Shown here: positions 6,176 to 61,000 of the stretch, one piece after another
Numbering within the stretch: position 1 is the first letter of the stretch
How the letters are laid out: every line of letters starts with the position of its first letter
Assembly: GCF_900116515.1 (NCBI RefSeq)
Contig: NZ_FPBA01000001.1
Coordinates: forward strand, 1 to 64,000
Reading direction: 5' to 3'
DNA length: 64,000 nt
Source: Geodermatophilus amargosae
GTDB taxonomy: Bacteria; Actinomycetota; Actinomycetes; Mycobacteriales; Geodermatophilaceae
Notes under the pieces: generated by a model
Seen by the model: only the letters and a program-made list of their open reading frames with translations
What the model was told of the DNA's origin: nothing
Database searches by the model: none
Translations under genes and position numbers: made by a program

Positions 6176-6176
<1 letters not shown>

Positions 6177-38158: not shown

Positions 38159-38557
38159 GTGACCGAACCCGCCGAACGGCGGTTGCTGACGCCGGAGGAG
38201 TACCGGCAGGCACAGGACTCGCCGGAGTTCACCGAGCTGCGCAGGCGCTTCCGGCGCTTCGCCTTCCCGATGACCGTGGCCTTCCTGGCCTGGTACCTGC
38301 TCTACGTCCTGCTCTCGACGTACGCGCCGGACTTCATGTCCACCCGGGTCTTCGGCAACGTCAACCTCGGCATCCTGCTGGGGCTGGCCCAGTTCGTGTC
38401 GACGTTCGTGATCACGCACCTGTACGTCTCGCACGCGAACCGCAGGACCGACCCGATCGCCGACGAGATGCGCGAGCGGCTCGAGAGCCACCAGTACGCC
38501 CACGGCACCGGCCAGAGCGGTCCCGACCTCGGCAAGAAGGGGGCCACGCGTGCCTGA
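38159..38557 (+). CDS. DUF485 domain membrane protein
   Basis: The 132-residue protein has two transmembrane spans (about 40-62 and 75-97) and the DUF485 pattern RRRFRRFAFPMTVAFLAWYL, with THLYVSHANR at the end of the second span. DUF485 proteins are almost always encoded with an ActP-type solute:sodium symporter and probably act as its small subunit. The GTG start has a GAGGGAG site upstream. The stop overlaps the start of the symporter gene by 8 bases. Confidence 0.92.
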   Translation: MTEPAERRLLTPEEYRQAQDSPEFTELRRRFRRFAFPMTVAFLAWYLLYVLLSTYAPDFMSTRVFGNVNLGILLGLAQFVSTFVITHLYVSHANRRTDPIADEMRERLESHQYAHGTGQSGPDLGKKGATRA

Positions 38558-40195: not shown

Positions 40196-40253
40196 AAGGA
40201 CCCCCTGGCCCCCACGCCCCGCTCCGCTCGGCGCGGGACCCTGCCAGAGGGCC
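40196..40253 (+). repeat. Dispersed 3' element, copy 2
   Basis: The 58 bases begin AAGGACCCCCT two bases after the actP stop and contain GCTCGGCGCGGGACCCTGC near the end. Orientation, length and distance from the stop match copy 1 after the sortase gene. No simple long hairpin is formed, so it is conserved at the sequence level rather than as a perfect stem. Confidence 0.7.
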
Positions 40254-40308
40254 GGTCAGCACGTCACCAGAGGCGCGCGTCCCCGTCGGGGGCGCGCGCC
40301 TCGCGCGT

Positions 40309-40566
40309 TCAGGCGGCCCGGACGGCGGGCGCGGCCTCGGGGAGGACGGTGTCGGGCAGGACGGCGTCGACGGTCACGACGGCGGCCGCGGTCGAGGGGA
40401 CGGTGCGGCGGGATCGGCGGACCGCCCAGCGGGTGAACAGGGCGGCGAGGACGACCAGGCCGGCCAGCGCCTCGCGGGTCGAGCCGGTGGCGGCACTGGC
40501 GACGGCGACGGCGAGCGCCGCGGCGTAGACCACCGTCACGGCGACGGCGGGGGTGGGCAGGTGCAC
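40309..40566 (-). CDS. Small hypothetical membrane protein (85 aa)
   Basis: The GTG at 40566 has a GGAGG site six bases upstream. The 85 residues include one or two hydrophobic spans (about 8-28 and 33-48), a basic patch, RWAVRRSRR, and an Ala/Val-rich tail. No family is recognised. It is the gene after manganese catalase on the same strand, 113 bases away, and could be cotranscribed. Confidence 0.55.
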   Translation of the reverse strand: MHLPTPAVAVTVVYAAALAVAVASAATGSTREALAGLVVLAALFTRWAVRRSRRTVPSTAAAVVTVDAVLPDTVLPEAAPAVRAA

Positions 40567-40679
40567 GGGGACCTCCGGGGACTGCCGGTCGTTCGGGGTG
40601 CGCCCGCCGGGCCGGCGGCCGGGCTGCGAGGGCTCGGCCACCGGCACGGCGACGGCGCGGGGAGCAGTGGGTCAGCGAC

Positions 40680-41540
40680 TCACTTGAGCAGGTCCTTGGC
40701 CTTCTGCAGCATCGTGTGGGCCTCGGTCTGCGGGGTGCTGTAGAGCCGCGGGTCGCCCGGGGGCAGCGTCGGGGCGTCGGCGGTGGCCTCGATCGCCGCG
40801 GCGCGGAACTCGCTGCGACCGTCGATCGAGGGACCGGAGGCCCAGCGGCCGTTGGCGGCCTCGGGACCGTCGGAGGCCTGGATGAAGGTGTAGCCCAGGT
40901 CGCCGACCTCCTCGTCGAGCGGGAAGGCCTCGGGCACGGGCAGCCCCTCCAGGCCGTCCTCCTTGAGCTGCTCGATCGCGGCCAGCCACTGCTGCTGGTG
41001 CATGTGGTCACGGGTGATCAGGAACCGCAGCATGTCCTTGACGCCCGGGTCGTCGGTCATGTTGTAGATGCGGGCGACCTGCAGCCGGCCCTGCATCTCG
41101 GCCGTGGCGTTGTAGTGGAAGTCGGCCATGAGGTTGCCGGAGGCCGTCACGTACGCGCCGGTCCACGGGTTGCCCATGGCGTCCATGTACGAGGCGCCCT
41201 GGCCGTTGGCGATGAGGTGCTGGGGGTTGTGCTGCCCGTAGCCGGCGGCGGCCTCCTTGCTGCGGTCGGCGGCGTCGGGCTTGAGCGGCGCGTGGTCGAG
41301 CAGCCGGTCGATCATCGTGATGATCATCTCGACGTGGGCCAGCTCCTCGGTGCCGATCGAGAGGAGCATGTCCTTGTACTTGCCGGGCAGCCGGCAGTTC
41401 CAGCCCTGCAGCAGGTACTGGGTGGCGACGGTCATCTCGCCCCACTGACCGCCGAGGATCTCCTGCATCTTGCGGGCGAAGTCCGGGTCGGGACCGTCGG
41501 GCTTGGCCTCGTACTGCAGGGCGTGGGTGTGCGTGAACAC
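40680..41540 (-). CDS. Manganese catalase
   Basis: The 286-residue dimanganese enzyme decomposes hydrogen peroxide. With the GTG at 41540 as start, the five metal ligands fall at Glu35, Glu66, His69, Glu148 and His181, the same numbers as in the Lactobacillus plantarum enzyme as I recall it, which strongly supports this start. A GGGAG site precedes it. The tail after residue 190 is longer than the core. It is probably part of the oxidative-stress equipment together with ergothioneine. Confidence 0.94.
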   Translation of the reverse strand: MFTHTHALQYEAKPDGPDPDFARKMQEILGGQWGEMTVATQYLLQGWNCRLPGKYKDMLLSIGTEELAHVEMIITMIDRLLDHAPLKPDAADRSKEAAAGYGQHNPQHLIANGQGASYMDAMGNPWTGAYVTASGNLMADFHYNATAEMQGRLQVARIYNMTDDPGVKDMLRFLITRDHMHQQQWLAAIEQLKEDGLEGLPVPEAFPLDEEVGDLGYTFIQASDGPEAANGRWASGPSIDGRSEFRAAAIEATADAPTLPPGDPRLYSTPQTEAHTMLQKAKDLLK

Positions 41541-41889
41541 GGGTTCTCCCTCGATGGCGCTTGCGTCGTCGTGTCGCCGCCGCTGCGGTGACACAGGAGA
41601 TCTGCCCGCGCCGGGTGGCCCGCCCGTGCCGTCCCGTGGCCCCCCGGTGCCATGTCATCCGTCGGCCTACCGGCCGACACCGCGGCCAGGTGCCCTCCCG
41701 CACCTGCGCTGAGCCGCTCCCGGTCCTCGTCGCGGAGGCCTCCGGCCCCCACTCCTCGACCCGCCCCGCAGGGCGACTCACCCCAGCGGCCAGGTGCCCT
41801 CTTGCACCTGCGCTGAGCCCACGCCGGCCACCGTCGCGGCGGCCCCGCTCCTCGACCCGCCCCGCCGGGCGGCTCACCCCAGGCTGTCC
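41541..41889. other. 350-bp intergenic region with tandem repeat
   Basis: No gene is visible in this stretch, which is upstream of manganese catalase and downstream of the histidine kinase gene. It contains a two-unit tandem repeat (41682-41880) made of small hairpins. The 140 bases next to the catalase start are free of repeats and must hold its promoter. No clear operator or riboswitch is seen. Confidence 0.5.
41682..41880. repeat. Two tandem ~100-bp repeat units with hairpins
   Basis: The units 41682-41784 and 41786-41880 share a first block, GCGGCCAGGTGCCCTC, followed by GCACCTGCGCTGAGCC, and a last block, CTCCTCGACCCGCCCCGC, ending CTCACCCC. Their middles differ. Each first block folds as CAGGTGC/GCACCTG, and each last block has a small GGGCG/CGCCC stem. 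They may act as terminators for the kinase gene or be a decaying duplication. Confidence 0.6.
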
Positions 41890-42636
41890 TCACCGGTCCG
41901 GGAGCTGGACGCAGAGGGTGAGGCCGGCCGCGGAGGTGGCCCACACGACCGTGCCGCCGAGGTCCCGGGCGTGCCGCTGCACCGACCACAGGCCCAGGCC
42001 GGTGAGGTCGACCGGCGGCGCGTCGTGGCGGAGGTACTGCACGACCCGCTCAGGGTGGGCCACGTCCTGCGTCAGCGCGAGCCGGACGCAGTCCCCCCGG
42101 CAGGTCACGGTGAGCAGCACGGGAGCGCCGTCGCCGTGCCGGTGCGCGTTCTCCAGCAGGTTGGTGAGGATCCGCTGCACGCGGGCGTCGCCGACGGTCA
42201 CGTCGGCGGCGCAGTCCTGCACGCCGACGGTCAGCTGGCGCGGCGGCAGCCCGGAGGCGGCCACCGAGGCACGGACGACGTCGTCGAGCAGCCGGCCGCC
42301 GGGTGCCCGCCGCGTGGCCCCGCCGGAGGCGTCGGCGGTGCGCAGCATCGAGGACAGGTGGGCGGTCTGCGCGCGGGCGAGGTCCAGCAGCTCGTCGTGC
42401 TGGGCGGGCGCCCGGTCCAGCGAGCGCAGCAGCGCCTCCAGGGAGGCCAGCGGGCTCTTCATGTCGTGGCACATCGCCCGCAGCAGCGCGCTGTCGGGTG
42501 TGGGCGGGACCTCGGGTTCGGGAGCGGGGCGGCGGACCGCGCGGGTCACGTGGTCGCGCACCACGCGGGCGAGGTCGGGGAGCAGCCAGCCGGAACCGGA
42601 CCGGGCGGTACGGGGTGTGTCGGGGGCCAGGGTCAC
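41890..42636 (-). CDS. Soluble sensor histidine kinase
   Basis: The 248-residue kinase has an H-box AMCHDMKSPLASLEALL (His57), an N-box ILTNLLENAHRHGDG (Asn163) and a G-box GLGLWSVQRHARDLGGTV (about 213-230). No membrane span or recognisable sensor domain precedes the H-box; the first 45 residues are Pro/Arg-rich. I chose the GTG at 42636 because it has a GGAGG site six bases upstream. The divergent response regulator 62 bases away is the likely partner. Confidence 0.87.
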   Translation of the reverse strand: MTLAPDTPRTARSGSGWLLPDLARVVRDHVTRAVRRPAPEPEVPPTPDSALLRAMCHDMKSPLASLEALLRSLDRAPAQHDELLDLARAQTAHLSSMLRTADASGGATRRAPGGRLLDDVVRASVAASGLPPRQLTVGVQDCAADVTVGDARVQRILTNLLENAHRHGDGAPVLLTVTCRGDCVRLALTQDVAHPERVVQYLRHDAPPVDLTGLGLWSVQRHARDLGGTVVWATSAAGLTLCVQLPDR

Positions 42637-42698
42637 GGGCACCTCCGGGGTGCGTCGGGCCTGTTCCGCCGGGCGCAACGGGCCGGGTGAGGAGGGTC

Positions 42699-43391
42699 GT
42701 GGGGTCGACCGACGCCGGGGCTGAGCGTCAGACGCACGTGGACGTGGTCGTCGTCGACGACCACCCGTTGTTCAGCCGGGGGCTGTCGCTGCTGCTCCCG
42801 GGGGTCAGCGAGGGACGGGTGCGCGTGGTCGCCACCACCGACGATGCCTCCGCGGCGGCCGCGCTGGTGCGCCGGCACCACGCCGACGTCGCCGTCGTGG
42901 ACCTGCACATGCCGCCGCCGGGCGGCGTGCGGGCGATCGCGGCGATCCGCCGGGCCGACCCGGTGGTCCGCGTGGTCGCGCTGTCCGGGCTCGCCGAGGC
43001 CGACGCGGCGCTGGAGGCGCTGCGGGCCGGGGCGGCCGGCTTCCTGCCCAAGACCGCCGACCCCGAGTCGCTGGTCCGCCCGCTGCTGGCGGTGCTCGAC
43101 GGCTGGTCGGTGGTCCCCGAGGCGCTGCTGCGCCAGCTGCTCGACGACGCCGCGCCGACCGGTGAGCAGACGATCGCCGACCGGCTGACCAGCGACGAGC
43201 GCCGGCTGTGGCGGCTGGTGGCCGACGGCACGAGCACCGTCGACATCGCCACCACGCTGCACGTGTCCGAGCGGACGGCGAAGCGGCTGGTGGCCTCGCT
43301 GCTGCGCAGCCTCGGGGTGAGCACCCGCGTCGAGGCGGCCGCGCTCGCCGGCCGCGCCGGGCTCCGCAAGGGGACCGGCGGACTGAGCTGA
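42699..43391 (+). CDS. LuxR-type (NarL-like) response regulator
   Basis: The 230-residue protein has a receiver domain with Asp20/Asp21, the phosphorylatable Asp68 (VAVVDLHMPPPGG), Ser96 and Lys118 (FLPKTA). The C-terminal HTH (about 165-225) has LVADGTSTVDIATTLHVSER then TAKRLVASLLRSLGV. The HTH is somewhat divergent from typical LuxR, with a Trp-rich start (RRLWRLVAD). The start is GTG 42699, five bases after GGAGG. It is divergent from the histidine kinase gene. Confidence 0.88.
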   Translation: MGSTDAGAERQTHVDVVVVDDHPLFSRGLSLLLPGVSEGRVRVVATTDDASAAAALVRRHHADVAVVDLHMPPPGGVRAIAAIRRADPVVRVVALSGLAEADAALEALRAGAAGFLPKTADPESLVRPLLAVLDGWSVVPEALLRQLLDDAAPTGEQTIADRLTSDERRLWRLVADGTSTVDIATTLHVSERTAKRLVASLLRSLGVSTRVEAAALAGRAGLRKGTGGLS

Positions 43392-43550
43392 GCGGGTCTC
43401 CCGCGGAGCAGCCGTCATCGAACCGCGGGCTACCCGGGCCCGTGATCGACACGCGCCGGTATCGGTGAACTGGCCCCGACGGGCCACCGACCGGCCGGGG
43501 ACGCGGCGCGGCCCGCCCGGGCCGGGCCGTCGGGCCTCAGCCGCCGTGCC

Positions 43551-45065
43551 TCAGCCGGGGAGGTCGGTCGGCGGGGCGGTGGCCCACGGCCCGGAGGCCG
43601 CTCCGGTGAACGCCGCGACGTCGCCGGCGGCCATGTCGACCGCCGCGTAACCGCCGTTGCCCGCGCCGACGCAGGCGACGACGGTGGCCAGGCCCGCGCG
43701 CCGCTGGAAGAACGTCTGCCGCACCTGCCAGCCGACGACGGCGCGACGCTGCAGCACCGCCTGCTCGCGCACCAGCAGCCCGCTGCGCACGCTGAACGAC
43801 CGCGGCCCGGTGGCGTGGCCGAGCGCGGCGTAGCGGCCCAGGCCGAGCGGGACGCCGAGCACGGTGAGCACGATCCCGGTGGCCAGCAGGCCCCAGAACC
43901 CGGTGAGGCCGGTCAGCACCGCGCCGGCCGCGATGACCAGCAGCCCGCTGCCGACCGCGCGCACCAGCGCCCGCCGCCGCGCGGCCGGCGGGTGCGGTGC
44001 CAGGGGGCCCGGGTCGTCGACGAGCACGCCGAGCAGCCGCACCGCCTCGGTCCGGGGGCCGAGCGGGAACAGCTGGCCGCGCCGGTTGGCCGCGCCCAGG
44101 CCGGTGACCAGCGCGTTGACCCGGGCGGCGCGCACCAGCCGCATGCCCAGCCCCTCGGCGAGGGTGCCGCCGCGGACCCGGTCGACCTCGAGCTCGGTGT
44201 GCCGCCGGGTCAGCAGCCCGCGGACGGCGACCAGCGAGCCCCCGCGCCGCACCAGCCGGAACCCCCAGTTGACGACCGCGGCCCCGGTCACGGCGCCGAG
44301 GACGAGCAGCAGCAGCGCCGCGACCGCGGTGACGACCAGCACGCGGACGTCGGTGAGGTCGGGGCCGTCGAGGTCGGGCCGCAGGTCCCGGGGCAGCTCC
44401 TGCAGCAGCCGTGACAGCGCGCCGACCGCTGCGAGCGGCACCGCGAGGTAGCTGCCCACCAGCGGCGCGTACAGCAGCCAGCGGCGGTCGAAGCGTGCCA
44501 GTTCCTCCTCGCCCGGCTCCTCCGGCGGCGGGGCGGACGGGTCCGTCCCGGCGGGCACGGGCGCGGTGCGGCGGTGGGTGAGCACCGAGGCGCGCAGCCG
44601 GTCGCCCTCGGCCCGCGGGACGCCGTCGACGACGACCTCCTCGTCCCCGCCGGTCAGAGTCCCGGCCGCGGCGTCGATGCGGACCCGGACCAGGCCGAAC
44701 AGCCGGTGCAGCGCGGGCGCCTCCACCTCGACGCCGCGGATGCGGTCGTTGGGCACGGTGCGCACCGAGCGGGCCAGCAGGCCGCGGGTGAGGACCACCG
44801 ACGAGGCGGTGTCGAGGTAGGTGGACCGCCACCACGACAGCGCGGCGAACAGCAGTGACAGCGCCGTCACCGCGGCCACCAGCGCGACGACGACGCCCAC
44901 GCCGTCGACACCCACCGCGGCGACGACGGGGATCGCGGCGGGCACGACCTGCCGGGCCTGCCGGAAGGTGACCGTGTGCACCACCACGACGAGGGGCGAG
45001 GTGCGGCGGGCCGCGGTCAGCTCCGGCGTCTCCTGGCCCGCCTCCGTCACCTCACCCCCCGTCAC
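43551..45065 (-). CDS. PH domain-containing membrane protein (YdbT-like)
   Basis: The 504-residue protein has several transmembrane spans arranged in pairs, each followed by a bacterial PH/DUF304 domain: VVLTRGLLARSVRTVPNDRI, SLVAVRGLLTRRHTELEVDR and FSVRSGLLVREQAVLQRRAV mark three domains. The family includes B. subtilis YdbT, linked to defence against membrane-active peptides. The GTG start overlaps the stop of the smaller PH gene (GTGA), so the two proteins are probably partners. Confidence 0.88.
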   Translation of the reverse strand: MTGGEVTEAGQETPELTAARRTSPLVVVVHTVTFRQARQVVPAAIPVVAAVGVDGVGVVVALVAAVTALSLLFAALSWWRSTYLDTASSVVLTRGLLARSVRTVPNDRIRGVEVEAPALHRLFGLVRVRIDAAAGTLTGGDEEVVVDGVPRAEGDRLRASVLTHRRTAPVPAGTDPSAPPPEEPGEEELARFDRRWLLYAPLVGSYLAVPLAAVGALSRLLQELPRDLRPDLDGPDLTDVRVLVVTAVAALLLLVLGAVTGAAVVNWGFRLVRRGGSLVAVRGLLTRRHTELEVDRVRGGTLAEGLGMRLVRAARVNALVTGLGAANRRGQLFPLGPRTEAVRLLGVLVDDPGPLAPHPPAARRRALVRAVGSGLLVIAAGAVLTGLTGFWGLLATGIVLTVLGVPLGLGRYAALGHATGPRSFSVRSGLLVREQAVLQRRAVVGWQVRQTFFQRRAGLATVVACVGAGNGGYAAVDMAAGDVAAFTGAASGPWATAPPTDLPG

Positions 45066-45577
45066 GTGGCCTCGTCCCGGACCTGCTCCGCGCGGCGGGC
45101 GAGGTCGTCGGCCACCCGCTCCGCGACGCCGAGCTCCAGGTGCGGCACCCGGACGGTGCCCTGCGACGACGCGGTCAGCACCGCGACGCTGGCCAGCCCG
45201 TAGAGCTGCTGCAGCACGCCGCGGGTGACGTCGACGGTCTGGATCCGCGCGACCGGCACCAGCGTCCAGGTGCGGGTCAGCCAGCCGGTGAGGGCGTGCA
45301 CGGTGTCCGCGGTGACCTCCCAGCGGTGCACCCGGTAGCGGATCCACGGGCGGATGCCGATCGCCACGACCGCGTAGACGACGACCAGCGCCGGCAGCAG
45401 CCACCGCAGCACCGGGACCGGGCCGCCCGTCGACGCGGGCATCGCGATCACGAACACCGCCACCAGGACGCCGTAGACCAGCGTGCCGAGGACCCCCTGG
45501 GTGACCCACAGCCAGATGGCCGAGCGCGACAGCGGCCAGGCCGGCTCGCGGACCGGGGGTGCGGGAGGAGCGGACAT
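45062..45577 (-). CDS. PH domain-containing membrane protein (YdbS-like)
   Basis: The 171-residue protein has two transmembrane spans (about 22-44 and 57-78) and one PH/DUF304 domain (VHRWEVTADTVHALTGWLTR then VPVARIQTVDVTRGVLQQLY). I chose the ATG at 45577; a GGGAGGAG site lies 6 bases upstream. It forms a YdbS/YdbT-type pair with the overlapping downstream gene. The end, LARRAEQVRDEAT, is helical and charged. Confidence 0.87.
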   Translation of the reverse strand: MSAPPAPPVREPAWPLSRSAIWLWVTQGVLGTLVYGVLVAVFVIAMPASTGGPVPVLRWLLPALVVVYAVVAIGIRPWIRYRVHRWEVTADTVHALTGWLTRTWTLVPVARIQTVDVTRGVLQQLYGLASVAVLTASSQGTVRVPHLELGVAERVADDLARRAEQVRDEAT

Positions 45578-45661
45578 CACGGCCCATCCTCCCAGCCCGT
45601 CGGGGACCTGCCCCCGGTGCGCTGCTACGGCTCGGGCCCGCCTGGGAGGATGGGGTGCGTG

Positions 45662-45991
45662 ATGCCGCAGCAGGTCCCGACCGTGTCCGCCGTCGAGGTC
45701 CCCGAGGACGCCGCGCTCCTCGACGTCCGGGAGGACGGCGAGTGGGTGGCCGGCCACGCGGAGGGCGCCACGCACATCCCGATGGGCGACGTGCCGGCCC
45801 GGCTCGACGAGGTCCCCGACGGCGACCCGGTGTACGTCGTCTGCCGCAGCGGCGGGCGCTCGGCGCGGGTGGCCGCCTGGCTCAACCTGAACGGCTACGA
45901 CGCGGTGAACGTCGGCGGCGGCATGGGCGAGTGGGAGGCGGCCGGCCGGCCCCTGGTGAGCGAGACCGGCCAGCCGCCCTTCATCCGCTAG
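45662..45991 (+). CDS. Rhodanese-like domain protein
   Basis: This 109-residue single-domain sulfurtransferase has the active-site loop VCRSGGRS (Cys61) and the entry motif ALLDVREDGEWVAGHAEGAT followed by HIPMG. It transfers sulfane sulfur or senses it. A GGGAGGA site precedes; an in-frame GTG at 45659 is an equally good start. It lies between the PH pair (divergent) and the convergent acyl-CoA ligase gene. Confidence 0.9.
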   Translation: MPQQVPTVSAVEVPEDAALLDVREDGEWVAGHAEGATHIPMGDVPARLDEVPDGDPVYVVCRSGGRSARVAAWLNLNGYDAVNVGGGMGEWEAAGRPLVSETGQPPFIR

Positions 45992-46012
45992 GGCCCCTGG
46001 CGGGGGCCGGCC

Positions 46013-47629
46013 TCAGGACTTCGGCGCGTACTCCGCGAAGCGCGACCGCAGGTCCTTCTTGGAGAACTTGCCGACGCTGGTCTTGGGGACCTCGTCGATG
46101 AACTCGACGGCGTCGGGCATCCACCACTTGGCGATCAGCGGCTTGAGGTACTCCAGGATCTCCTCCTCGGTGGCGGTCTCGCCCTCCCGGAGGACGACGC
46201 AGGCCAGCGGCCGCTCGTCCCACTTCGGGTGCGGGATGCCGACGACCGCGGCCTCCTTGACCTTCGGGTGGCTCATGATCGCGTTCTCGAGGTCGACCGA
46301 GCTGATCCACTCACCGCCGGACTTGATGAGGTCCTTGGTGCGGTCGGCGATGCGGATGGAGCCGAAGGAGTCCATCGCCGCGACGTCGCCGGTGCGCATC
46401 CAGCCGTCCTCGGTGGTCAGCTCGACGCCCGCGTCGGGGTTGTAGTAGTCCTTCGCGCACCACGGGCCGCGGACCTGCAGCTCACCGGTGGCCTGGTCGT
46501 CCCAGGGCTGCGGCTCGAGGGTCTCGGAGTCGACGATGCGCGCCTCCACGCCGAGGAACGGGATGCCGGCGCGGGCACGCTGCGCGGCCTTGCCCTCGTC
46601 GTCGAGGTCGTCGAAGCGGGGCGGCAGGATGCCCGACGAGGCGACCGGGTGGGTCTCGGTCATGCCCCAGGCCTGCAGGATCGGCAGGCCGACCTGCTCG
46701 CGGTAGGCCTCCGACAGTGCCTTGGGCACCGCCGAGCCGCCGCAGCCGATGTCGCGCAGCTTGTGCGGCTTGCCGGCCAGGTGGGGCAGCACGCCCTGCC
46801 AGATGGTCGGGACGCCGGCGGTGAAGGTGACGCCCTCGTCGAGGATGAGCCTGGCCAGCGCCTCGGGCTGCATCATCGGGCCGGGCATGACCAGCGAGGC
46901 GCCGGCGGCCGGGGCGGCCTGCGCGATGCCCCAGGCGTTGGCGTGGAACATCGGCACGACCGGCATGGCGACGTCGCGGATGCTGAGCCCGAAGGCGTTG
47001 GGCATCAGCACGCCCATGGTGTGCAGGAACGTCGAGCGGTGCGAGTAGACGACGCCCTTGGGGTTGCCGGTGGTGCCGGACGTGTAGCACATCGAGGCAG
47101 CGGAGTTCTCGTCCTCGACGTGGAACTCGACCGGCGAGGCCTCGGCCAGCAGCGCCTCGTAGTCGGAGATGCGCGGGTCGTCGGGGATCTCGTTGTCGCT
47201 GCCGTCGTCCATGATCACGACGTGCTGCACGGTCTTCATCGTGTCCACGAGCGGCCAGAACAGCGGCAGCACGGAGCGGTCGACGAAGACGACCTCGTCC
47301 TCGGCGTGGTTGGCGATGTAGGTCAGCTGCTCCGGGAAGAGCCGGATGTTCAGCGTGTGCAGGATGCGGCCGCTGGACGGCGCGGCGAAGTAGAGCTCGA
47401 GGTGCCGCTGGCTGTTCCAGCCGAAGGTGCCCACCCGGCCCTCGGCGCTGATCCCCAGCGTGTCGAGGACGCCGCCCAGCTTGCGGGTGCGCTCGGCCCA
47501 CTCGGCGTAGGTCACCTTGGTGACGCCCGTGGGGCTGTTGGTCGCGATCGTCCCGTCGCCGTAGTGCTGCTCGACGTGCCGGAAGATCGCGTCGATGGTG
47601 AGGGGGAAGTCCTGCATGAGCCCGCGCAT
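46013..47629 (-). CDS. Fatty acid--CoA ligase
   Basis: The 538-residue ANL-superfamily enzyme activates a fatty acid with ATP and CoA. The AMP-binding motif YTSGTTGNPKG is at 182-192. GWMRTGDVA, DRTKDLIKSGGEWISSVDLE and the C-terminal catalytic lysine region PKTSVGKFSKKDLR are all intact. The sequence QAWGMTETHPVAS and the length fit medium- or long-chain acyl-CoA synthetases. The ATG at 47629 was chosen. It lies 32 bases beyond the DNA-repair gene. Confidence 0.92.
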   Translation of the reverse strand: MRGLMQDFPLTIDAIFRHVEQHYGDGTIATNSPTGVTKVTYAEWAERTRKLGGVLDTLGISAEGRVGTFGWNSQRHLELYFAAPSSGRILHTLNIRLFPEQLTYIANHAEDEVVFVDRSVLPLFWPLVDTMKTVQHVVIMDDGSDNEIPDDPRISDYEALLAEASPVEFHVEDENSAASMCYTSGTTGNPKGVVYSHRSTFLHTMGVLMPNAFGLSIRDVAMPVVPMFHANAWGIAQAAPAAGASLVMPGPMMQPEALARLILDEGVTFTAGVPTIWQGVLPHLAGKPHKLRDIGCGGSAVPKALSEAYREQVGLPILQAWGMTETHPVASSGILPPRFDDLDDEGKAAQRARAGIPFLGVEARIVDSETLEPQPWDDQATGELQVRGPWCAKDYYNPDAGVELTTEDGWMRTGDVAAMDSFGSIRIADRTKDLIKSGGEWISSVDLENAIMSHPKVKEAAVVGIPHPKWDERPLACVVLREGETATEEEILEYLKPLIAKWWMPDAVEFIDEVPKTSVGKFSKKDLRSRFAEYAPKS

Positions 47630-47661
47630 GGCCGCATCGTGCCAGTGACGGGGCTCACCCT

Positions 47662-48324
47662 CTACCGGGGAGCGCGCCGCTCCAGCTCCCGGAGGGCGTC
47701 GGTTGCGACCCAGCGGGCGCCGCGGCCCCCCGACCTCAGCTCCTGCGCGGTCGCGACGGCGCGGGCGTGCAGACCGGGGCTGCGCTTGCCGATCTGCCGC
47801 AGCGCCCAGCTCGCGCCCTTCCGGACCAGCGGCCGGTCGTCGTCGGCCTGCTCGGCGACCGCCCGCAGGAACGGCTCGAACCGGTCGTCGTCCGACCGCC
47901 TGTCGGCGACCGCGAGACCGGCCATGACGGTGAACCCGGCCCGCTTGACGAACGTCTCCGGCCGCCCGCTCCACTCCAGCGCCCTCGCCCGGGCGAACGG
48001 GGTGTGCCGGACCAGGTTCTGGCAGACCTGGTCGCACACGTCCCACGAGTCGAACGCGGCAGCCCACTCGTCGAGCTGCCGCTCGTCGACCGCCGCCGGT
48101 TCCTCGACCAGGCTGGCCAGGATGCGGGCCTCGTGGACGCCGGAGCTCCAGAGCCCCGCCGCCAGCTCGTGCGAGCGGCCCAGCTCCCTCGCCAGCGCGC
48201 GCAGCTCGGCCACGGTGACACCGAGGGTCTGCGCGCCGCCGATGCCGTAGCGGGCCATGCCCTCCAGTCGGGCGGGGTCGGCCAGCCCGCGCAGCCGGGC
48301 GAGCACGTCGGCGGTGTCGGCCAC
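47662..48324 (-). CDS. DNA alkylation repair protein (AlkD-like HEAT repeats)
   Basis: The 220-residue all-helical protein is a HEAT-like-repeat DNA glycosylase family member. It has the AlkD-type segments YGIGGAQTLGVTVAELRALA, SGVHEARILASLVEEP, WDVCDQVCQNLV and KGASWALRQIGKRSPGLH. It probably removes alkylated bases. The GTG start shares one base with the P450 stop codon (TAGTG), so the two are coupled although functionally unlike. Confidence 0.88.
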   Translation of the reverse strand: MADTADVLARLRGLADPARLEGMARYGIGGAQTLGVTVAELRALARELGRSHELAAGLWSSGVHEARILASLVEEPAAVDERQLDEWAAAFDSWDVCDQVCQNLVRHTPFARARALEWSGRPETFVKRAGFTVMAGLAVADRRSDDDRFEPFLRAVAEQADDDRPLVRKGASWALRQIGKRSPGLHARAVATAQELRSGGRGARWVATDALRELERRAPR

Positions 48325-49532
48325 TACCGGGTCAGGACGACGGGCAGCTCGGCCAGGCCGCGGATGACGAACTCGGGACGGCGCCGCGCCGGGTGGGCCA
48401 GCTCCAGCCGAGAGGTCCGCTCGAGCAGCGCGCCGAAGGAGGCCTGGAGCTCCACGCGGGCCAGCGGTGCCCCGATGCAGAAGTGCACGCCCGCGCCGAA
48501 GGAGATGTGCGGGTTGTCGGTGCGGCCGACGTCCAGGGTGTCGGGGGCGGCGAAGACGGCGGGGTCGCGGTTGGCGGCGCCGAGCAGCGCGGCCACCTTC
48601 TGCCCCTCGCGCACGGTCGCGCCGCCGATGTCGACGTCGGCCGTGGCGGTGCGCTCGAACAGCTGCAGCGGCGAGTCGAAGCGCATGAGCTCCTCGATCG
48701 CCGTCGGCAGGAGGCCCGGGTCCGCCCGCAGCCGCGCCAGCTGGCCGGGGTGCTCGAGCAGCGCGAGCAGCCCGTTGCCGCTGACGTTGACCGTGGCCTC
48801 GTGGCCGGCGTTGAGCAGCAGGATGCAGGTGGTGACCAGCTCGTCCTCGGTCAGCCGGTCGCCCTCGGAGTCGCGGACGGTGACCAGGTGCGAGAGCAGG
48901 TCCTCGCCCGGGGCGCGGCGGCGCTGCGCGGCGAGCTCGCGCAGGTAGGCGACGAACTCCGCGGCGGCCTGTTCGGCGGCGTCCTCGATCGCCGTCGCCC
49001 GGCCGTACTCGTACATCTTCACGATGGCGTTCGACCACGGCCGCAGCAGCGGCCGGTCGGCCGCCGGAACGCCGAGCAGCTCGGCGATGACGGCCACCGG
49101 CAGCTCCTCGGCCATCCCCGACAGGACGTCGACGGGCTCGCGGCCGCCCGAGCGCTCGGCCAGGCCGTCGACCAGCTCGCCGGCCAGGTCCTGCACCCAC
49201 GGGCGCAGCCGCTCGACGTGGCCCCGCGCGAAGGCGGCGCTGATCAGCCGGCGCAGGCGGGTGTGGTCGGGCGGCTCCATCTCGAGGATGGCGTTGCGGT
49301 GGATCAGGTTGAACGAGCCGAACCGCTCGGCCGGCTCCCTGTCCCGCCAGATGCGGCCCAGCCGCCGGTCGCGCAGGACGGCGTTGCTCTCCGCGTGGGT
49401 GAACGCCAGCCACAGGCCCAGCCCCTCGTGCCACTGGACCGGCGCGACGGCGCGGGCGGCGGCGAACGCCGGGTAGGGATCGACGACGACGGCGGGGTCG
49501 GTGAGGTCGAGCGGTGCCGTCACGGAGGTCAC
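48324..49532 (-). CDS. Cytochrome P450
   Basis: The 402-residue monooxygenase has the haem-binding loop FGAGVHFCIGAPLAR (Cys352), the oxygen-activating I-helix motif LNAGHEAT and the ExxR motif EELMR. I chose the GTG at 49532; upstream codons do not resemble the family. The substrate is not predictable, and no ferredoxin or reductase gene is adjacent. The gene diverges from the SEC-C protein gene. Confidence 0.92.
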   Translation of the reverse strand: MTSVTAPLDLTDPAVVVDPYPAFAAARAVAPVQWHEGLGLWLAFTHAESNAVLRDRRLGRIWRDREPAERFGSFNLIHRNAILEMEPPDHTRLRRLISAAFARGHVERLRPWVQDLAGELVDGLAERSGGREPVDVLSGMAEELPVAVIAELLGVPAADRPLLRPWSNAIVKMYEYGRATAIEDAAEQAAAEFVAYLRELAAQRRRAPGEDLLSHLVTVRDSEGDRLTEDELVTTCILLLNAGHEATVNVSGNGLLALLEHPGQLARLRADPGLLPTAIEELMRFDSPLQLFERTATADVDIGGATVREGQKVAALLGAANRDPAVFAAPDTLDVGRTDNPHISFGAGVHFCIGAPLARVELQASFGALLERTSRLELAHPARRRPEFVIRGLAELPVVLTR

Positions 49533-49588
49533 GGCTGCCGACCCTATGCGGCGCGGGTGGCGCCGCGACCCCACATACGCTGGGCTGC

Positions 49589-50524: not shown

Positions 50525-50536
50525 GGATCCCGCCGT

Positions 50537-50576
50537 CTGTCGTGCTCTGCCCACAGTCGTGTGCAGAGCACGACAG
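50537..50576. terminator. Tandem hairpin 1
   Basis: Perfect 14-bp arms (50537-50550 and 50563-50576) have core CGTGCTCTGC around a 12-base loop containing CCACAGTCGTG. It lies 12 bases after the SEC-C gene stop. It is nearly identical to hairpin 2, 28 bases away. Together they separate two convergent genes. Confidence 0.8.
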
Positions 50577-50604
50577 CGCGCAGGACACCTGTGCCGCCGG
50601 CCTT

Positions 50605-50636
50605 CGTGCTCTGCCCACAGTCGTGGGCAGAGCACG
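50605..50636. terminator. Tandem hairpin 2
   Basis: Perfect 14-bp arms (50605-50618 and 50623-50636) surround the loop AGTC. Thirty-one of 32 bases match hairpin 1; only one base in the loop-proximal stem differs. The duplication suggests a repeat family used as a terminator for the convergent SEC-C and M20 peptidase genes. Confidence 0.8.
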
Positions 50637-50672
50637 AGCGTTCACGGAGGAGTGCAGCCCGGCCGGCGGGCC

Positions 50673-52109: not shown

Positions 52110-53590
52110 GCGACCTCCCGCACGCCCACGGCCTCCGGCCGGTCGGAGAACGCCAGCCGCGGCACGAAGACCAACGACAGCGCGGCCAGCCACGCCGTCG
52201 CCCCGCAGACCACCCAGACCGTGACGTAGCCCGACAGCGACCCGGCCGTGCCCTCGGACCCGTCGGCGGCCGCCGGTGCGCCGGCCGCCAGGGCGACGGC
52301 GAAGACGGCCGAGGCGAAGCTCCCGCCGAGCACCTTGGTCGTGTTGGTCAGCCCGGTGGCCACGCCGGTGCGGCCGGCCGGTGCTGCCGCGGCCGCGGCA
52401 GCCGGCAGCGCCGCCACCAGCGCCCCGGAGCCGAGGCCGGCGACCACCATCGCCCCGAGGACCTGCGGCAGGGTGTCGTGCAGCGGGACGAGCAGGAGGT
52501 ACCCGAGGCCGGTGAGCGTCGCGGCACCGATGAGCGTCACGCGCGGGGTGGTGGCCTGCGAGACCCGGGAGAACTGGCTCGCGCCGGCCAGCATCGACAC
52601 GACGTAGCCGCCGATGACGATCGACACCTCGCTCGTGGACAGGCCCAGGCCGTAGCCGTAGACCGCCGGGTCGGTGCGGGCGTAGGTCGACAGCGGGCCC
52701 TGGGCGCCGAGCACGCTCACCCCGAACAGCCCGGCGGTCAGCTGCACCGGCCACATGCTGGGGGAGCGCAGCACCCGGAAGTCCACCAGCGGGTCCTCCC
52801 GGCGCAGCTCGTAGCGGACGAACGGCACGACCAGCAGCACGCCGAGCGCGGTGACCAGCCAGGGCCACGGCTCGCTCGCGCCGTTGATGCGCACGAAGGT
52901 GAGGCCGCCGGTGATCACCAGCAGGACGACGCTCAGCAGCGCGACACCGGTGACGTCGACGTCCCCGTCCCGGCGGTCCGTGCTCTCCGGCACCCGGGTC
53001 AGCACGACGACGCAGACGCCGACGACGAGCAGGCCCGGGAGCAGCAGCACCAGCCAGAACTGCCCGGCGAGCGCGGCGCCGACCTGCCCGCCACCGAGTG
53101 CGCCCACGATCGCGCCGGCCTGCAGCGCGGCGACGATCAGGCCGGTCGCCCGGCGGGTGCTCGCCGCCGCGTCGGCCCGGCCGCGGGACCGCGAGTGGAT
53201 CAGCGCGACCTGCAGCGGCAGCCAGGCGGCGTAGGCGCCCTGCACCGCCCAGGCCACGAGGAAGACGCCGAAGTCCTGGGCGGTCGCCAGCACCACCGTG
53301 GCCGCCGCGACCACCGCCGCCGAGGTCAGCAGCATCCGGCGGTGGCCGTAGAGGTCACCGAGCTTGGCGAGGACCGGCACGGCGATCGCCGAGAGCATCA
53401 GCTGAGCGGCCTCGAGCCAGTTGACGTCGGCGTCGTGGATGCCGAGGTGCCGGGCCACGTCGGTCAGCAGCGGGACGTAGTAGCCCTGGAGCACGCCGCT
53501 GGTGAACTCGACGAAGACGAGCCAGCCGACCAGTCCCCCGCCGAGCCCCGCGATCCGGCCGGTCCGCCGGGCCGTCCCCGTACCTATCAC
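52106..53590 (-). CDS. MFS transporter, DHA2-like (14 spans)
   Basis: The 494-residue integral membrane protein has about 14 hydrophobic segments and the MFS loop motif KLGDLYGHRRMLL (about 76-88). The protein resembles drug:proton antiporters of the DHA2 family. It is coupled to the M20 peptidase gene by a 4-base overlap. The GTG start at 53590 has no strong ribosome site. Confidence 0.88.
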   Translation of the reverse strand: MIGTGTARRTGRIAGLGGGLVGWLVFVEFTSGVLQGYYVPLLTDVARHLGIHDADVNWLEAAQLMLSAIAVPVLAKLGDLYGHRRMLLTSAAVVAAATVVLATAQDFGVFLVAWAVQGAYAAWLPLQVALIHSRSRGRADAAASTRRATGLIVAALQAGAIVGALGGGQVGAALAGQFWLVLLLPGLLVVGVCVVVLTRVPESTDRRDGDVDVTGVALLSVVLLVITGGLTFVRINGASEPWPWLVTALGVLLVVPFVRYELRREDPLVDFRVLRSPSMWPVQLTAGLFGVSVLGAQGPLSTYARTDPAVYGYGLGLSTSEVSIVIGGYVVSMLAGASQFSRVSQATTPRVTLIGAATLTGLGYLLLVPLHDTLPQVLGAMVVAGLGSGALVAALPAAAAAAAPAGRTGVATGLTNTTKVLGGSFASAVFAVALAAGAPAAADGSEGTAGSLSGYVTVWVVCGATAWLAALSLVFVPRLAFSDRPEAVGVREVA

Positions 53591-53644
53591 GCCTCGCGTC
53601 CTCTCCCCGAGGCCTCCCCGGGACGGGAGGGGTACGGCAGCGTA

Positions 53645-53675
53645 CTGAGCGGCAGTGTCGTGCCGGGAGGCTCAG
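53645..53675 (-). terminator. Weak hairpin at the end of arcA
   Basis: CTGAGC (53645-53650) pairs with GCTCAG (53670-53675), with an inner GGCA/TGCC stem. It includes the arcA stop codon. It is a possible terminator or attenuator between arcA and the MFS gene, weaker than the other hairpins. Confidence 0.35.
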
Positions 53676-54898
53676 AGCGGGTCGCGCCACACCGGGCAGG
53701 ACATGCACCGGGGCCCGCCGCGGCCGCTGCCGAGCTCGGAGCCCGCGATGGGCACCACCTCGATGCCGGCCGCCTCCAGCGCGGCGTTGGTGACGGTGTT
53801 GCGCTCGTAGGCCACGGCCAGTCGCGGGGCCAGCGCGAGGGTGTTGTTGCCGTCGTCCCACTGCTCGCGCTCGGCGGTGACCGGGTCCAGGCCGGTGTCG
53901 ATCACCCGCAGCCGCTCGATGCCCATGGCCTCGGCCGCGGCGACGACGAACGGCGCCGGCCCGCGGACGACGAGGTCGGTGGTGTCGTCGTCGTCCGGGA
54001 CCGTGTCCGCCGTGACCGTCCAGGCCACCAGCGTGTCGGCGACCGCGGGGTACATGACCATCGCGTCGACGTCGACCATCGTCGCGATGGTGTCCAGGTG
54101 CATGGTCGCCCGCTCCTGGGCGATCGGGACGACGAGCACCGTCTGCGCCAGCCCCCGCGCGAACACCCGGCGGGCCAGCCGCTCGGCGCCGCCCGGCGTC
54201 GTCCGCTCACCGACCCCCACCGCCACCACCCCGGGGGCGAGCAGCAGGACGTCGCCGCCCTCGAGGTGCTCCAGCGAGGAGTCGTAGAGCTGCTCGGCGC
54301 CGGCGAAGCGCGGGTGGTGCGTGGCGACCGCGTGGGTGATCGTGCTCTCCCGGTGCCGCGCGGGCATGGCCAGCGAGGTGATCGCCACCTGGTCGCCCAC
54401 CCACACCGAGGAGTCGCGGGTGAACAGCAGGTTGGGCAGCGGCGGGACGACGAAGTCGTGCCGGTCCATGACCTCGTAGGCCAGGCCCCGCCCGCCGCGC
54501 AGCTCGTGGTGCGCCAGCCCGGCCATCAGCGCGGTGGCCAGGTCCTCCGGCGCCAGGTCCGCCAGGTGGGCGGCCGCGGCCCGGGTGAGCGTGGCCCCCA
54601 GGCGCGGGTCGTCGACGGCGGCGGCCACCAGCTCCTCGCGGGCTTCCGGCGAGGTCAGCACCTCGGCGAGCAGCCGGTCCAGGTACAGGACCTCGACACC
54701 GCGGTCGGTGAGCGCGGCGGCGAACGCGTCGTGCTCCTCCTGCGCGCGGGCCACCCACGGCACGCCGTCGAAGAGCAGCTGGTCGTTGTTCCGGGGGGTC
54801 AGCCGGCGCAGCTCGGCGCCCGGCCGGTGCAGGACCACCGTCCGCAGCGGGCCGACCTCGCTGGTCACGCCCAGGGGGCGGGGGGCCGCGGTCGTCAC
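53672..54898 (-). CDS. arcA: Arginine deiminase
   Basis: The 408-residue enzyme hydrolyses arginine to citrulline and ammonia. The family motifs are all present: [53 protein letters not shown] and the catalytic-cysteine end [11 protein letters not shown] (Cys398). I chose the GTG at 54898, which leaves 71 bases for the divergent promoters; a GTG at 54940 would add 14 residues. No arcB or arcC is adjacent, so it may serve nitrogen salvage or acid resistance alone. Confidence 0.94.
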
Positions 54899-54969
54899 GG
54901 GGACCGAGGCTGGCACAGTGACCGGGCCGTCGCACGACACTGCCGTCCCGACGCCCCAGGAGGCACCGC

Positions 54970-55733
54970 GTGGACCTGTTCGACCTGACCGGGAAGGTCG
55001 CCGTGGTCACCGGCGGCACCCGCGGCATCGGCCTGATGATGGCCCGCGGCCTGCTGCGGGCCGGGGCGTCGGTCTACGTCTCCTCGCGCAAGCCGGAGGC
55101 CGGCGAGCAGGCCGCCGCCGAGCTCGCCGAGTACGGCCGGGTCGAGTCGATCCCCGCCGACGTCAGCACCGAGGCCGAGTGCCTCCGGCTGGCCGAGGAG
55201 GTCGGCCGGCGCGAGGAGCGCGTGCACGTGCTGGTCAACAACGCCGGCGCCACCTGGGGCGAGCCGTTCGAGACCTTCCCCGCCTCGGCCTGGGACAAGG
55301 TCCTCGACCTCAACCTCAAGGCGCCGTTCTTCCTCACCCGGGCGATGCTGCCGCTGCTCGAGGCCGCCGCCACCGACGACGACCCCGCCCGCGTGGTCAA
55401 CGTCGGCAGCATCGACGGCCTGCACGTGCCGGTGCTGCCGACCTACTCGTACTCGTCGAGCAAGGCCGCGGTGCACCAGCTCACCCGGCACCTGGCCAAG
55501 GAGCTCGGGCCCCGGCGGATCACCGTCAACGCCGTCGCCCCGGGGCCGTTCGAGTCGAAGATGATGGCCGCCACCCTGGCCGCCCGCGGCGACGAGATCG
55601 CCGCCAGCGCGCCGCTGGGCCGCATCGGCCGCCCCGACGACATGGCCGGCGTCGTCGTCTACCTGTCCAGCCGGGCCGGCGCGTACGTGACCGGCGCGGT
55701 GATCCCGGTCGACGGCGGCCGGGCGACGACCCT

Positions 55734-55737
<4 letters not shown>
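54970..55737 (+). CDS. SDR family oxidoreductase (FabG-like)
   Basis: The 255-residue classical short-chain dehydrogenase has the cofactor motif TGGTRGIG (14-21), NNAG (90-93) and catalytic Ser147, Tyr161 and Lys165 (YSSSK). It ends with the usual ASYVTG-like [11 protein letters not shown]. The Arg residues at 18 and 40 hint at NADP use. The substrate is unknown. It converges with the large regulator gene and overlaps its stop region by 4 bases. Confidence 0.9.
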
Positions 55738-59159
<3,422 letters not shown>

Positions 59160-59304
59160 GACCGCGCATCCTCGCAGGTCGCGGCGCCCGGCGGGAGGGG
59201 TCCGTGCGGCCCAAGTCGGGCGCAAGTGGCCGTCAAGACGGCGGGGCCACGGTCGGCCTCGACCTCCTCCCTGCCCCGCTTCTCCCTGACCCGAGGAACC
59301 GACC

Positions 59305-60750
59305 ATGAGCCTGACCCGGACCCCCGCTGCCCCGCGCCCCCGCACGCCGCTCGACGACGTCCCCGTCCTCCTCGACCCGGCGGCCGTCGCCGACCTGCGC
59401 GGCCGCGTCCACGGACCGGTCTACGTGGCCGGTGAGGACGGCCTGGCCGCCGAGGTCGCCGCGTGGAACCTCGCCGTCACCCACACGCCCGCCGTCGCGG
59501 TCGGTGCCACCTGTGCCGCCGACGTCGCTGCGGCCGTCGCCTTCGCCACCGCGCAGGGCCTGCCGGTCGCCGTCCAGGCCACCGGGCACGGCCCGGTCCG
59601 CAACGCCGACGGCGCGCTGATGGTCACCACTCGCCGCATGCAGGGCGTCAGCGTGGACCCGGTCCGGCGCACCGCGCGGGCCGAGGCGGGCGTCAAGTGG
59701 CAGAAGGTGATGGCGGCCGCCGCGGAGCACGGGCTCGCCGGGCTGTGCGGCTCCTCGTCCGACGTCGGGGTGGTCGGCTACACCCTCGGCGGGGGGCTGG
59801 GGTCGCTCGGCCGCCGGCACGGGTTCGCCGCCGACGCGGTCGTGAGCGTGGAGATGGTGACCGCAGACGGCGTGCTGCGCACCGTCTGCGCCGAGACCGA
59901 GCCGGAGCTGTTCTGGGCGGTGCGCGGCGGCAAGGGCAACTTCGGGGTGGTCACCGCGCTGGAGTTCGAGCTGTTCCCCGTGCCGGCGCTGGTGGCCGGC
60001 GGGCTGTTCTTCGCCGGCCGCGACGCCGCCGCCGTGCTGCACGCCTACCGCACCTGGGCGCCGACGCTGCCCGAGGAGGTCAGCACCTCGATCGCGGTGC
60101 TGCGGCTCCCGCCCCTGGAGGAGCTGCCGCCGCCGCTGCGCGGGCAGACCGTGGTGCACCTGCGCTACGTGTACGCCGGCGAGGACCCCGCGCTCGGGAC
60201 CGCGCTGGTGGCGCCGATGGAGTCCGCGGGCGAGGTGCTGCTCGGCGGCGTCGGGCCGATGCCGGCGACGGCCCTCGATGCGGTGCACATGGACCCGACC
60301 GACCCGATGCCCGGCTGGGAGAAGGGGGTGCTGCTCGCCGACCTCCCCGCGGAGGCGGTGGACGCGTTCCTCGCCGCGGCCGGGCCGGACGTCCAGGTGC
60401 CGCTGATCATGGCGGAGATCCGCCAGATGGGCGGCGCGCTGGCCCGCCCCGCGCGGGTGCCCGACGCCGTCCCGGGGCGCGACGCCGCCTGGTCGGTGTT
60501 CGTGGTCGGCCCGATGGTCCCGGAGCTGGGCGAGGTGGTGCCCGCGGTCGGCCGCGGCGTGCTGGCGGCGATGGAGCCGTGGGCCGCGTCGAGCCGGATG
60601 GTCAACTTCCTCGGCGACGTCTCCGGCCCGGACGAGGTGCTGGCGGCCTGGAGTCCCGAGGCGGCCGAACGGCTGCTCGCGGTCAAGCGCGCGGTCGACC
60701 CCGACGACGTCTTCTCCACCGGCTACGCGCTGCGGGCCCGCCGTGGCTGA
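59305..60750 (+). CDS. FAD-binding oxidoreductase, berberine-bridge-enzyme type
   Basis: The 481-residue flavoprotein has a PCMH-type FAD domain: VAVQATGHGPVRNADGALMV (His95 as likely 8-alpha FAD attachment) and GLCGSSSDVGVVGYTLGGGL (Cys148 as possible second covalent bond). The C-terminal BBE segment VDPDDVFSTGYAL is also present. It oxidises an unidentified sugar, alcohol or secondary metabolite. It begins 146 bases from the divergent BTAD regulator, which may control it. Confidence 0.88.
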   Translation: MSLTRTPAAPRPRTPLDDVPVLLDPAAVADLRGRVHGPVYVAGEDGLAAEVAAWNLAVTHTPAVAVGATCAADVAAAVAFATAQGLPVAVQATGHGPVRNADGALMVTTRRMQGVSVDPVRRTARAEAGVKWQKVMAAAAEHGLAGLCGSSSDVGVVGYTLGGGLGSLGRRHGFAADAVVSVEMVTADGVLRTVCAETEPELFWAVRGGKGNFGVVTALEFELFPVPALVAGGLFFAGRDAAAVLHAYRTWAPTLPEEVSTSIAVLRLPPLEELPPPLRGQTVVHLRYVYAGEDPALGTALVAPMESAGEVLLGGVGPMPATALDAVHMDPTDPMPGWEKGVLLADLPAEAVDAFLAAAGPDVQVPLIMAEIRQMGGALARPARVPDAVPGRDAAWSVFVVGPMVPELGEVVPAVGRGVLAAMEPWAASSRMVNFLGDVSGPDEVLAAWSPEAAERLLAVKRAVDPDDVFSTGYALRARRG

Positions 60751-60865
60751 GCCGCTGGTCGCCGTCCGTCCGCCCCGGCCGCCCGTCTGGCTGCGGCGGC
60801 GCATGGGCATCCCGCCGGCCCTGCCCCCGCCCGGCTGGACGCCCCGGCACGATCAGGTGAGCTGA
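60743..60865 (+). CDS. Possible 40-residue ORF overlapping the flavoprotein end
   Basis: A GTG at 60743 lies 8 bases inside the flavoprotein gene and opens a 40-codon frame rich in Pro, Arg and Trp (PPRPPVWLRRRMGIPPALPP). The coupled position resembles real downstream genes. However, no domain is recognised, and the last codons fall in a hairpin. It may be chance in GC-rich DNA. Confidence 0.3.
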   Translation: MAEPLVAVRPPRPPVWLRRRMGIPPALPPPGWTPRHDQVS

Positions 60866-60926
60866 TCGTGCTGCGTCCTGGCTCACCGCCGACGGTGAGC
60901 CTGGACGCGCGACGCCGAGCCAGGAC
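60851..60926. terminator. Cluster of hairpins after the flavoprotein gene
   Basis: Three stems occur close together: GATCAG/CTGATC (60851-60867), GGCTCACC/GGTGAGCC (60880-60901), and a longer-range GTCCTGGCTC with GAGCCAGGAC (60875-60884 and 60917-60926). The last two share bases, so they are alternative structures. They probably terminate the rightward transcript. Confidence 0.5.
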
Positions 60927-60944
60927 CTGTTCCGGTGGGCCTTC

Positions 60945-61000
60945 GGCCCGCTCCGGGGTCCCGCCCCGAGCGTGCGAGGGGTGGGGAGGAGGGGGTCCTT
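60945..61000 (-). repeat. Dispersed 3' element, copy 3
   Basis: Read on the minus strand, the 56 bases begin AAGGACCCCCT, 20 bases after the stop of the ADPS-like gene, and contain CTCGGGGCGGGACCCC near the end. The orientation relative to the upstream gene is the same as in copies 1 and 2. This copy can also form a GCTC..GAGC hairpin. Confidence 0.7.

Follow-up and report, generated by a model that had tools for sequence, protein, structure and literature searches.

The 64,000 nucleotides analysed here (positions 1 to 64,000 of contig NZ_FPBA01000001.1 of Geodermatophilus amargosae, hereafter the window; GC content 76%) come from a 5.87 Mb genome of the family Geodermatophilaceae and were found to contain three copies of a short hairpin element, each lying behind the stop codon of a gene and pointing in the same direction as that gene. 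The copies, the genes upstream of them and the features adjoining copy 2 are given below, with scores from the covariance model R1 of the element.

19546..19603, minus strand: element copy 1, a 58-nt hairpin, 80.6 bits (R1)
19606..20226, minus strand: sortase-domain gene (PF04203) upstream of copy 1, its start codon being the choice of the gene finder
38550..40193, plus strand: sodium:solute symporter gene (PF00474) upstream of copy 2
40196..40253, plus strand: element copy 2, 58 nt, 54.7 bits (R1)
40254..40268, plus strand: tail resembling GTTCCAGCACGTCACC, adjoining copy 2
40270..40302, plus strand: perfect GC-rich hairpin separate from the element, kept in 21/24 orthologous symporter loci
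60945..61000, minus strand: element copy 3, of the 56-nt class, 56 bits (R1)
61021..62724, minus strand: FAD-linked oxidase gene (PF01565/PF02913) upstream of copy 3

Copy 1 was found to begin 2 nt past the TGA of the sortase gene (19606-19608) and copy 2 to begin 2 nt past the TGA of the symporter gene (40191-40193), followed by copy 3 at 20 nt past the TGA of the oxidase gene (61021-61023). An earlier note on this DNA had reported the three copies at these coordinates and strands, with shared sequence blocks and with starts 2, 2 and 20 nt past stop codons in the sense orientation, all of which was reproduced. Its sortase was recovered and its flavoprotein was found to be the FAD-linked oxidase, followed by its acetate symporter, which was recognised as a sodium:solute symporter, the acetate specificity resting on that note. 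Orthologous copies of copy 2 were found in 20 further species of the genus. The hairpin at 40270..40302 appears, from its sequence, to be terminator-like and is independent of the element.

Structure and size of the family

Exact matches to the pattern AAGGACC-N20-45-GGGACCC numbered 26 in the genome, and a reversed control pattern gave 3. The element accounted for 25 of the 26, and the remaining match lay in coding-like sequence and agreed at its ends only. A gap-free seed alignment (A1) of 12 of the 25 copies was used to build R1, with which 145 genome copies were found at E<=1 (best E-value 2.3e-17; 150 candidates scored), or about one copy per 40 kb. The profile scan that the earlier note had called for thus gave hits that were not few. 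The list of 145 copies is probably near complete, because R1 run over 464 contiguous kb recovered at E<0.01 exactly the 12 copies listed genome-wide for that stretch, and nothing outside the list.

The element was found to be an interrupted, imperfect hairpin of 55-60 nt with a defined polarity. It contained the 5′ foot ARGG-A-CC with a bulged A, an outer stem of 11 bp (columns 3-14 with columns 48-58), an internal loop of CC opposite ACCCT with conserved CCC nucleotides, and an inner stem of 8 positions (columns 17-24 with columns 35-42), the fourth of which was often an A/C mismatch, followed by the presence of the apical loop TCGCNNGCTC and of the 3′ foot GGCC. The outer stem was shorter in the class of copies of about 56 nt. 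In A1, 92.5% of the cells were paired, whereas slid structures paired just 41-45%. Double-change cells numbered 21 against 6.4 in shuffles, 0/500 shuffles reached 21, and covariation was found in both stems. The earlier description of the element as not a simple long hairpin therefore failed, as it folds as an interrupted hairpin with covariation in both of its stems. No Rfam family was found above its gathering score over the copies, and a lax search at copy 2 gave sub-gathering matches only.

Hairpins are common at the 76% GC of the window, and similar GC-rich hairpins could in principle arise by chance. However, the control pattern, the E-values and the covariation, together with a placement far from the null and the absence of matches from 24 genomes of the other families of the order (both given below), leave this explanation with a negligible probability. 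Chance or base composition was thus ruled out as the origin of the repeats by the control pattern, covariation, E-values and placement.

A tail resembling GTTCCAGCACGTCACC was found behind a minority of the copies, 16/138 matching at least 9 of its 14 positions against 1/138 forty bases downstream. The tail motif alone, searched over the 464 kb with up to 3 mismatches, gave scattered matches, and among those displayed none lay behind an element; this test is weak because the tail of copy 2 itself escaped that setting. Tandem arrays were seen at three loci (L136 ~1660-1814, L177 ~4624-4783 and L108 3326-3431), in which a full element is directly trailed by further, incomplete copies that span model positions 8-54 or 9-53.

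Placement at stop codons

Gene ends in the flanks of all 145 copies were taken from our own gene finder, which is based on codon usage and was trained on 89 long open reading frames (ORFs). By this measure 116/145 copies lay behind a gene in the sense orientation, 16 behind a divergent gene and 13 within predicted genes, so that 132/145 were outside predicted genes. For 105 of the 116 sense copies the start was found at -3 to +4 nt relative to the stop codon, and the coding score rescued 3 of the 13 copies classed as inside genes, which brings the copies starting in this range of an in-frame sense stop to 108/145. Under a null of uniform intergenic placement on either strand, 1.5% of copies would lie within 4 nt of a 5′ stop, against 105/132 observed; the null counts spacings 0..4 and the observed range of -3..+4 includes 23 copies that overlap the stop, without which 82/132 remain. 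A sense gene was found upstream in 116/132 copies against 38.6% under the null. The copies are related, and p-values for placement are descriptive.

The spacing +1 was missing among the 105 copies, and one orthologous copy (L321) was found to have it. At the other end of the element, a convergent stop lay no more than 6 nt from the 3′ end in 19/132 copies (null 2.1%), 10 of the 19 also having a 5′ stop, and 9 copies beyond the 108 abut a convergent stop by their 3′ end. In named relatives, whose loci derive from a strict pattern scan, an in-frame stop at -3..+4 nt was found in 72/116 of the copies among the matches listed, 49 of the 72 being at spacing 2; these 116 were taken from 124 matches after leaving out 3 near locus ends and 5 partial tandem copies. 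In the sister species G017, 7/12 copies were in the stop-adjacent range, as read from the comparison of the two genomes. The earlier note had looked to sense clustering near stop codons, together with coincident RNA ends, as support for a signal at gene ends, and had held that few, intragenic or randomly oriented hits would speak against one; the clustering was found, and the hits were numerous, mostly outside genes and mostly in the sense orientation.

The spacing was found to follow the stop triplet. Of the copies at spacing 0, 14/16 had TAG as the stop, and of those at spacing 2, 43/45 had TGA (stop usage in the 464 kb: TGA 365, TAG 67 and TAA 6), and the junction sequence therefore matters. 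An in-frame sense stop was missing from 37 copies, of which 16 were still found to contain a stop-like triplet at the junction. In eight of the 37 this triplet was at spacings 0, 2 or 3 against about 1.3 expected, two of the eight having ambiguous coding scores and the three offsets having been picked after inspection of the in-frame copies. In named relatives a stop-like junction triplet was found in 27/44 copies without an in-frame stop, several of which are related nested copies. The first bases of the element can complete such a triplet, so the overall shares (16/37 and 27/44) have no exact control and only the offsets 0, 2 and 3 compare cleanly with the null.

Distribution, turnover and nesting

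Matches to R1 were found in 34/61 genomes of the order, comprising 26/26 of the own genus (the source genome included) and 8/11 from other genera of the family, and in 0/24 genomes from other families of the same order. Searches over 40 genomes used stricter filters; the absences in the order, class and phylum surveys hold at that sensitivity, and the copy counts of these surveys are lower bounds. The strict pattern scan gave at least 80 named loci, all of Geodermatophilaceae by title among the matches listed, with Geodermatophilus, Modestobacter, Blastococcus, Goekera, Trujillonella and further family members represented. A class-wide search with R1 found matches in 2/296 genomes, namely the source genome and one genome (G401) of the family f18, in which the repeats were found to contain the same loop and two-stem plan (14 matches at E<=1, some chance-like). 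A core-only model (R2) applied phylum-wide found matches in 3/396 genomes, namely the source genome, a second f18 genome (G126) of the same genus as G401 with at least 18 matches, and a lone match elsewhere. In these searches the element was shown to be confined to the Geodermatophilaceae, barring the same-core cousin in one other actinobacterial genus, and the earlier expectation of a lineage-specific element was borne out. Searches made with one copy each found matches in 2 phage records (E 0.1) and in 3 plasmid records (E 0.6), all of them partial and uninformative as to carriage of the element by phages or plasmids.

The cousin hairpin repeat of the f18 genus contained the loop TCGCAAGCTC and different feet (loci L361, L362, L365-L370, L372, L375, L376 and L378-L405). 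Three of its copies were found to contain TAG directly followed by TCCCC (L362, L383 and L393), with a clear upstream coding score in two.

At the symporter locus the element was found directly past the stop in 21/24 congeners, the three exceptions containing a deletion remnant, another hairpin and nothing, respectively. The separate strong hairpin lies downstream in 21/24 symporter loci, including the three without an intact element, and one further locus ends earlier. At the oxidase locus (17 of 18 loci read) the element was found in 2/17 species and was absent in 15/17, with a fragment in one more. Against the sister species, 11 of the 12 copies in the 464 kb were found to have collinear flanks, mostly 86-97% and about 94% identical; 3 of the 11 were in both species, 2 were remnants in the sister species and 6 were absent from it. 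The comparison used 12 of the 13 matches of the sister species, the weakest being excluded. Two of the 3 copies common to both species were found to contain a strongly different element sequence. Clean empty-site junctions were also found, including CTAG^TCGACGG and CCTCGG^TCA. Two insertions in the sister species just before the old stop (L341-L360, joined ~377529 and ~381753) seem to be read through in frame, and on this reading of the comparison they would give the proteins a new element-encoded end.

Copies were also found within copies. At the symporter locus of five species the loop of the first element contains another one, and in one of the five a third is nested within the second; in a sixth species a second copy lies in the tail and brings a TAG. 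Among 22 displayed copies from named relatives, 8 were read as a recurring composite and 6 as loop insertions. The composite (L168, L114, L139, L117, L122, L181, L166 and L130) consisted of one element, preceded at its AAGG by YTG, that is enclosed by the arms of another. In several cases GTCAG follows the inner element and the inner copies are nearly identical, which would suggest that the composite moves as a whole. The flanks of 138 copies showed no consistent direct repeat of the kind left by target-site duplication; k-mers exceeded shuffles at a few offsets, with small counts (maximum 8/138). Presence and absence between sister species, empty sites and nested copies bear out the mobile repeat that the earlier note had raised. 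That note had set a mobile repeat and sense clustering against each other as alternatives; each half was supported, and the either/or framing was not, since both hold.

The retained symporter copy bears on a second explanation. In 16 of its 21 occurrences (nested ones excluded) 91.7% of the cells were found to be paired, with 33 double-change cells against a shuffle mean of 9.7 and maximum of 17 (n=16). Stems kept paired through double changes imply that pairing is selected at this site or that the copies are refreshed from elsewhere. The element might be read as a module of use to the host at gene 3′ ends (a terminator, a protector of mRNA ends or a modulator of translation termination) that must sit directly past the stop, spread by copying and kept by selection for its function. 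This reading would suit the precise sense position past stops, the retention of the symporter copy with its paired stems and the mild excess of copies at convergent gene ends (56/116, where 36.6% would be expected from the gene 3′ ends as a whole; p 0.007). However, it would sit poorly with the absence or decay of most comparable copies in the sister species, with the 15/17 oxidase orthologues that lack the element, with the separate hairpin that already follows the symporter gene and with the 60/116 sense copies that lie upstream of a co-directional gene. A need for a stop followed by a hairpin would also leave TAG at 0 and TGA at +2 unexplained. We regard this explanation as unlikely, while a function of the element at host 3′ ends, considered from the sequences, is possible. 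Transcription termination as the sole role was disfavoured by the co-directional downstream genes, the separate symporter hairpin and the turnover.

Known repeat systems and the origin of the element

Small hairpin repeats are common in bacteria, and the YPAL repeats of enterobacteria overlap stop codons. The element resembles the GTAG repetitive extragenic palindromic sequences (REPs) and REPINs, which are linked to the REP-associated tyrosine transposase (RAYT; IS200/IS605-like), in being a short, high-copy extragenic hairpin that acts as a miniature mobile element. It differs from them in having no PF01797 gene and no fixed GTAG at its 5′ flank, in occurring mostly as single units of 55-60 nt, and in its two stems, loop nesting and much stronger placement at stop codons. 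The termini of GTAG REPs often supply a TAG stop to flanking ORFs, according to PMC3733652. The same paper describes CGTC REPs as palindromic repeats apparently without a dedicated transposase, a likeness to the present element, and gives them 8-9-bp stems, 4-5-nt loops and mostly head-to-head dimers, whereas here the stem is in two parts and reaches up to 19 bp, the loop measures 10 nt and a constant CGTC end is missing. CGTC was seen only within the tail of a minority of copies.

The REPs and bacterial interspersed mosaic elements (BIMEs) of Escherichia coli likewise contain hairpins past stop codons. In PMC12306157, 446/4,072 predicted E. coli REPs (~11%) lie no more than 15 nt from a stop, and REPs this close are reported, citing earlier work, to stall ribosomes or lower translation; here 108/145 copies were within -3..+4 nt. 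The mycobacterial interspersed repetitive units (MIRUs) are also small actinobacterial mobile repeats with an insertion tied to reading-frame ends. MIRUs insert at start codons, carry a gene-coupled ORF and have minimal gene impact (PMC12548453), whereas the present element is a 58-nt hairpin found at stop codons and not at start codons. The YPAL and ERIC repeats of enterobacteria are intergenic palindromic repeats that fold as RNA, with model lengths of 69-168 in the tables of PMC2267715, against 55-60 nt here, a separation made by description and not by sequence. A miniature inverted-repeat element of a DDE transposon would leave a target-site duplication, of which no consistent sign was found at the element. 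The sole palindromic repeats in the accessible portion of PMC9686282 are clustered regularly interspaced short palindromic repeats (CRISPR). No earlier description of the family was found in the open-licence literature searched. The element works like a REP but falls outside the RAYT, GTAG and CGTC groups.

The Y1/RAYT transposase domain PF01797 was found in 0/1 source genome and 0/96 genomes of the family, in a search that covered PF01797 with other transposase classes not searched, and in 0/7 genomes that included both f18 genomes (three of the seven being among the 96); a control search was positive in 5/14 known genomes. Mobilisation driven by PF01797 was rejected, as no such gene was found in the genomes searched, and the family is thus REP-like, yet not a RAYT-driven REP family. 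Spread might then need no dedicated transposase at all, with template switching, gene conversion or repair at stalled hairpins copying hairpins between sites. This would also account for the replaced loops and for divergent sequences at common sites, and it agrees with the missing PF01797 gene and target duplication, with nested copies that replace the loop instead of simply splitting it, and with the two sites common to both sister species where the element differs strongly between flanks of about 94% identity. However, clean gains without prior hairpin homology (for example at CTAG^TCGACGG) and the strong junction rule speak against it, and the transposase search covered PF01797 only. On balance we consider transposase-free spread unlikely.

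The copies probably form a family of short, non-autonomous, REP-like mobile hairpins that use stop codons as low-damage sites. Insertion or its resolution would prefer a triplet of the TGA/TAG type on the 5′ side, and selection in a gene-dense genome of 76% GC would purge most other insertions, so that the stop codon of the gene itself would be the chief place where an insertion is tolerated. The 3′ untranslated region of the transcript would then open with the copy, its hairpin lying inside the footprint of the terminating ribosome, where it may affect termination, mRNA stability or the end of transcription. The loop insertions, which lack a target duplication, might be made through single-stranded DNA, with template switching a serious competitor.

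Several observations weigh against the mobile hairpin so conceived. The symporter copy is kept with paired stems in more species than a pure passenger would predict, and there is the mild excess at convergent gene ends. The gene ends themselves rest on our own gene finder, and no PF01797 gene was found. Relative to the remaining stop-like triplets in the 100 nt 3′ of genes, in-frame stops were about 5-fold in excess (108:16 against 438:348), which makes a triplet preference alone insufficient, so that selection or a translation-linked step also acts. In nested copies the stop-like triplet seems to be borne by the element and not by the target, a poor fit to target recognition.

A more specific form of the mobile hairpin, offered as a tentative and rather doubtful proposal, would have a non-PF01797 enzyme move a single-stranded DNA hairpin, join it beside TGA or TAG and carry it into the loops of resident copies, so producing nests. 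Each entered gene would gain a hairpin 0-3 nt past its stop, in the region that the ribosome covers as it terminates, and termination sites would serve as both a safe harbour and a control point. The f18 cousin would belong to the same wider class.

With about three quarters of its copies no more than 4 nt away from an in-frame stop, self-nesting and no recognised transposase, the family offers a natural system for two questions, namely by what route REP-like repeats spread when no transposase is known for them, and in what way mobile DNA can occupy the ends of genes harmlessly. Because closely related species contain orthologous genes with and without the element, the family also allows a comparison, made by nature, of terminating ribosomes with and without a hairpin next to them.

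Other features of the window were also noted. The region 60851-60911, 3′ of the oxidase gene, was found to contain a GATCAG..CTGATC palindrome beside a TGGCTCAC..GTGAGCC dyad; similar dyads recur 3′ of oxidase orthologues and at the symporter gene in other species. The exact pattern was found at one further site of the genome (1 per 464 kb here and 2-3 per 400 kb in G017). A match to the Rfam family 5_ureB_sRNA (42.7 against a gathering score of 40) was found at 4619-4911 on the minus strand, antisense inside a predicted gene at 4455-6176 on the plus strand. Positions 1-342 were found to contain the 3′ end of a 23S rRNA gene followed by the presence of a 5S rRNA gene.

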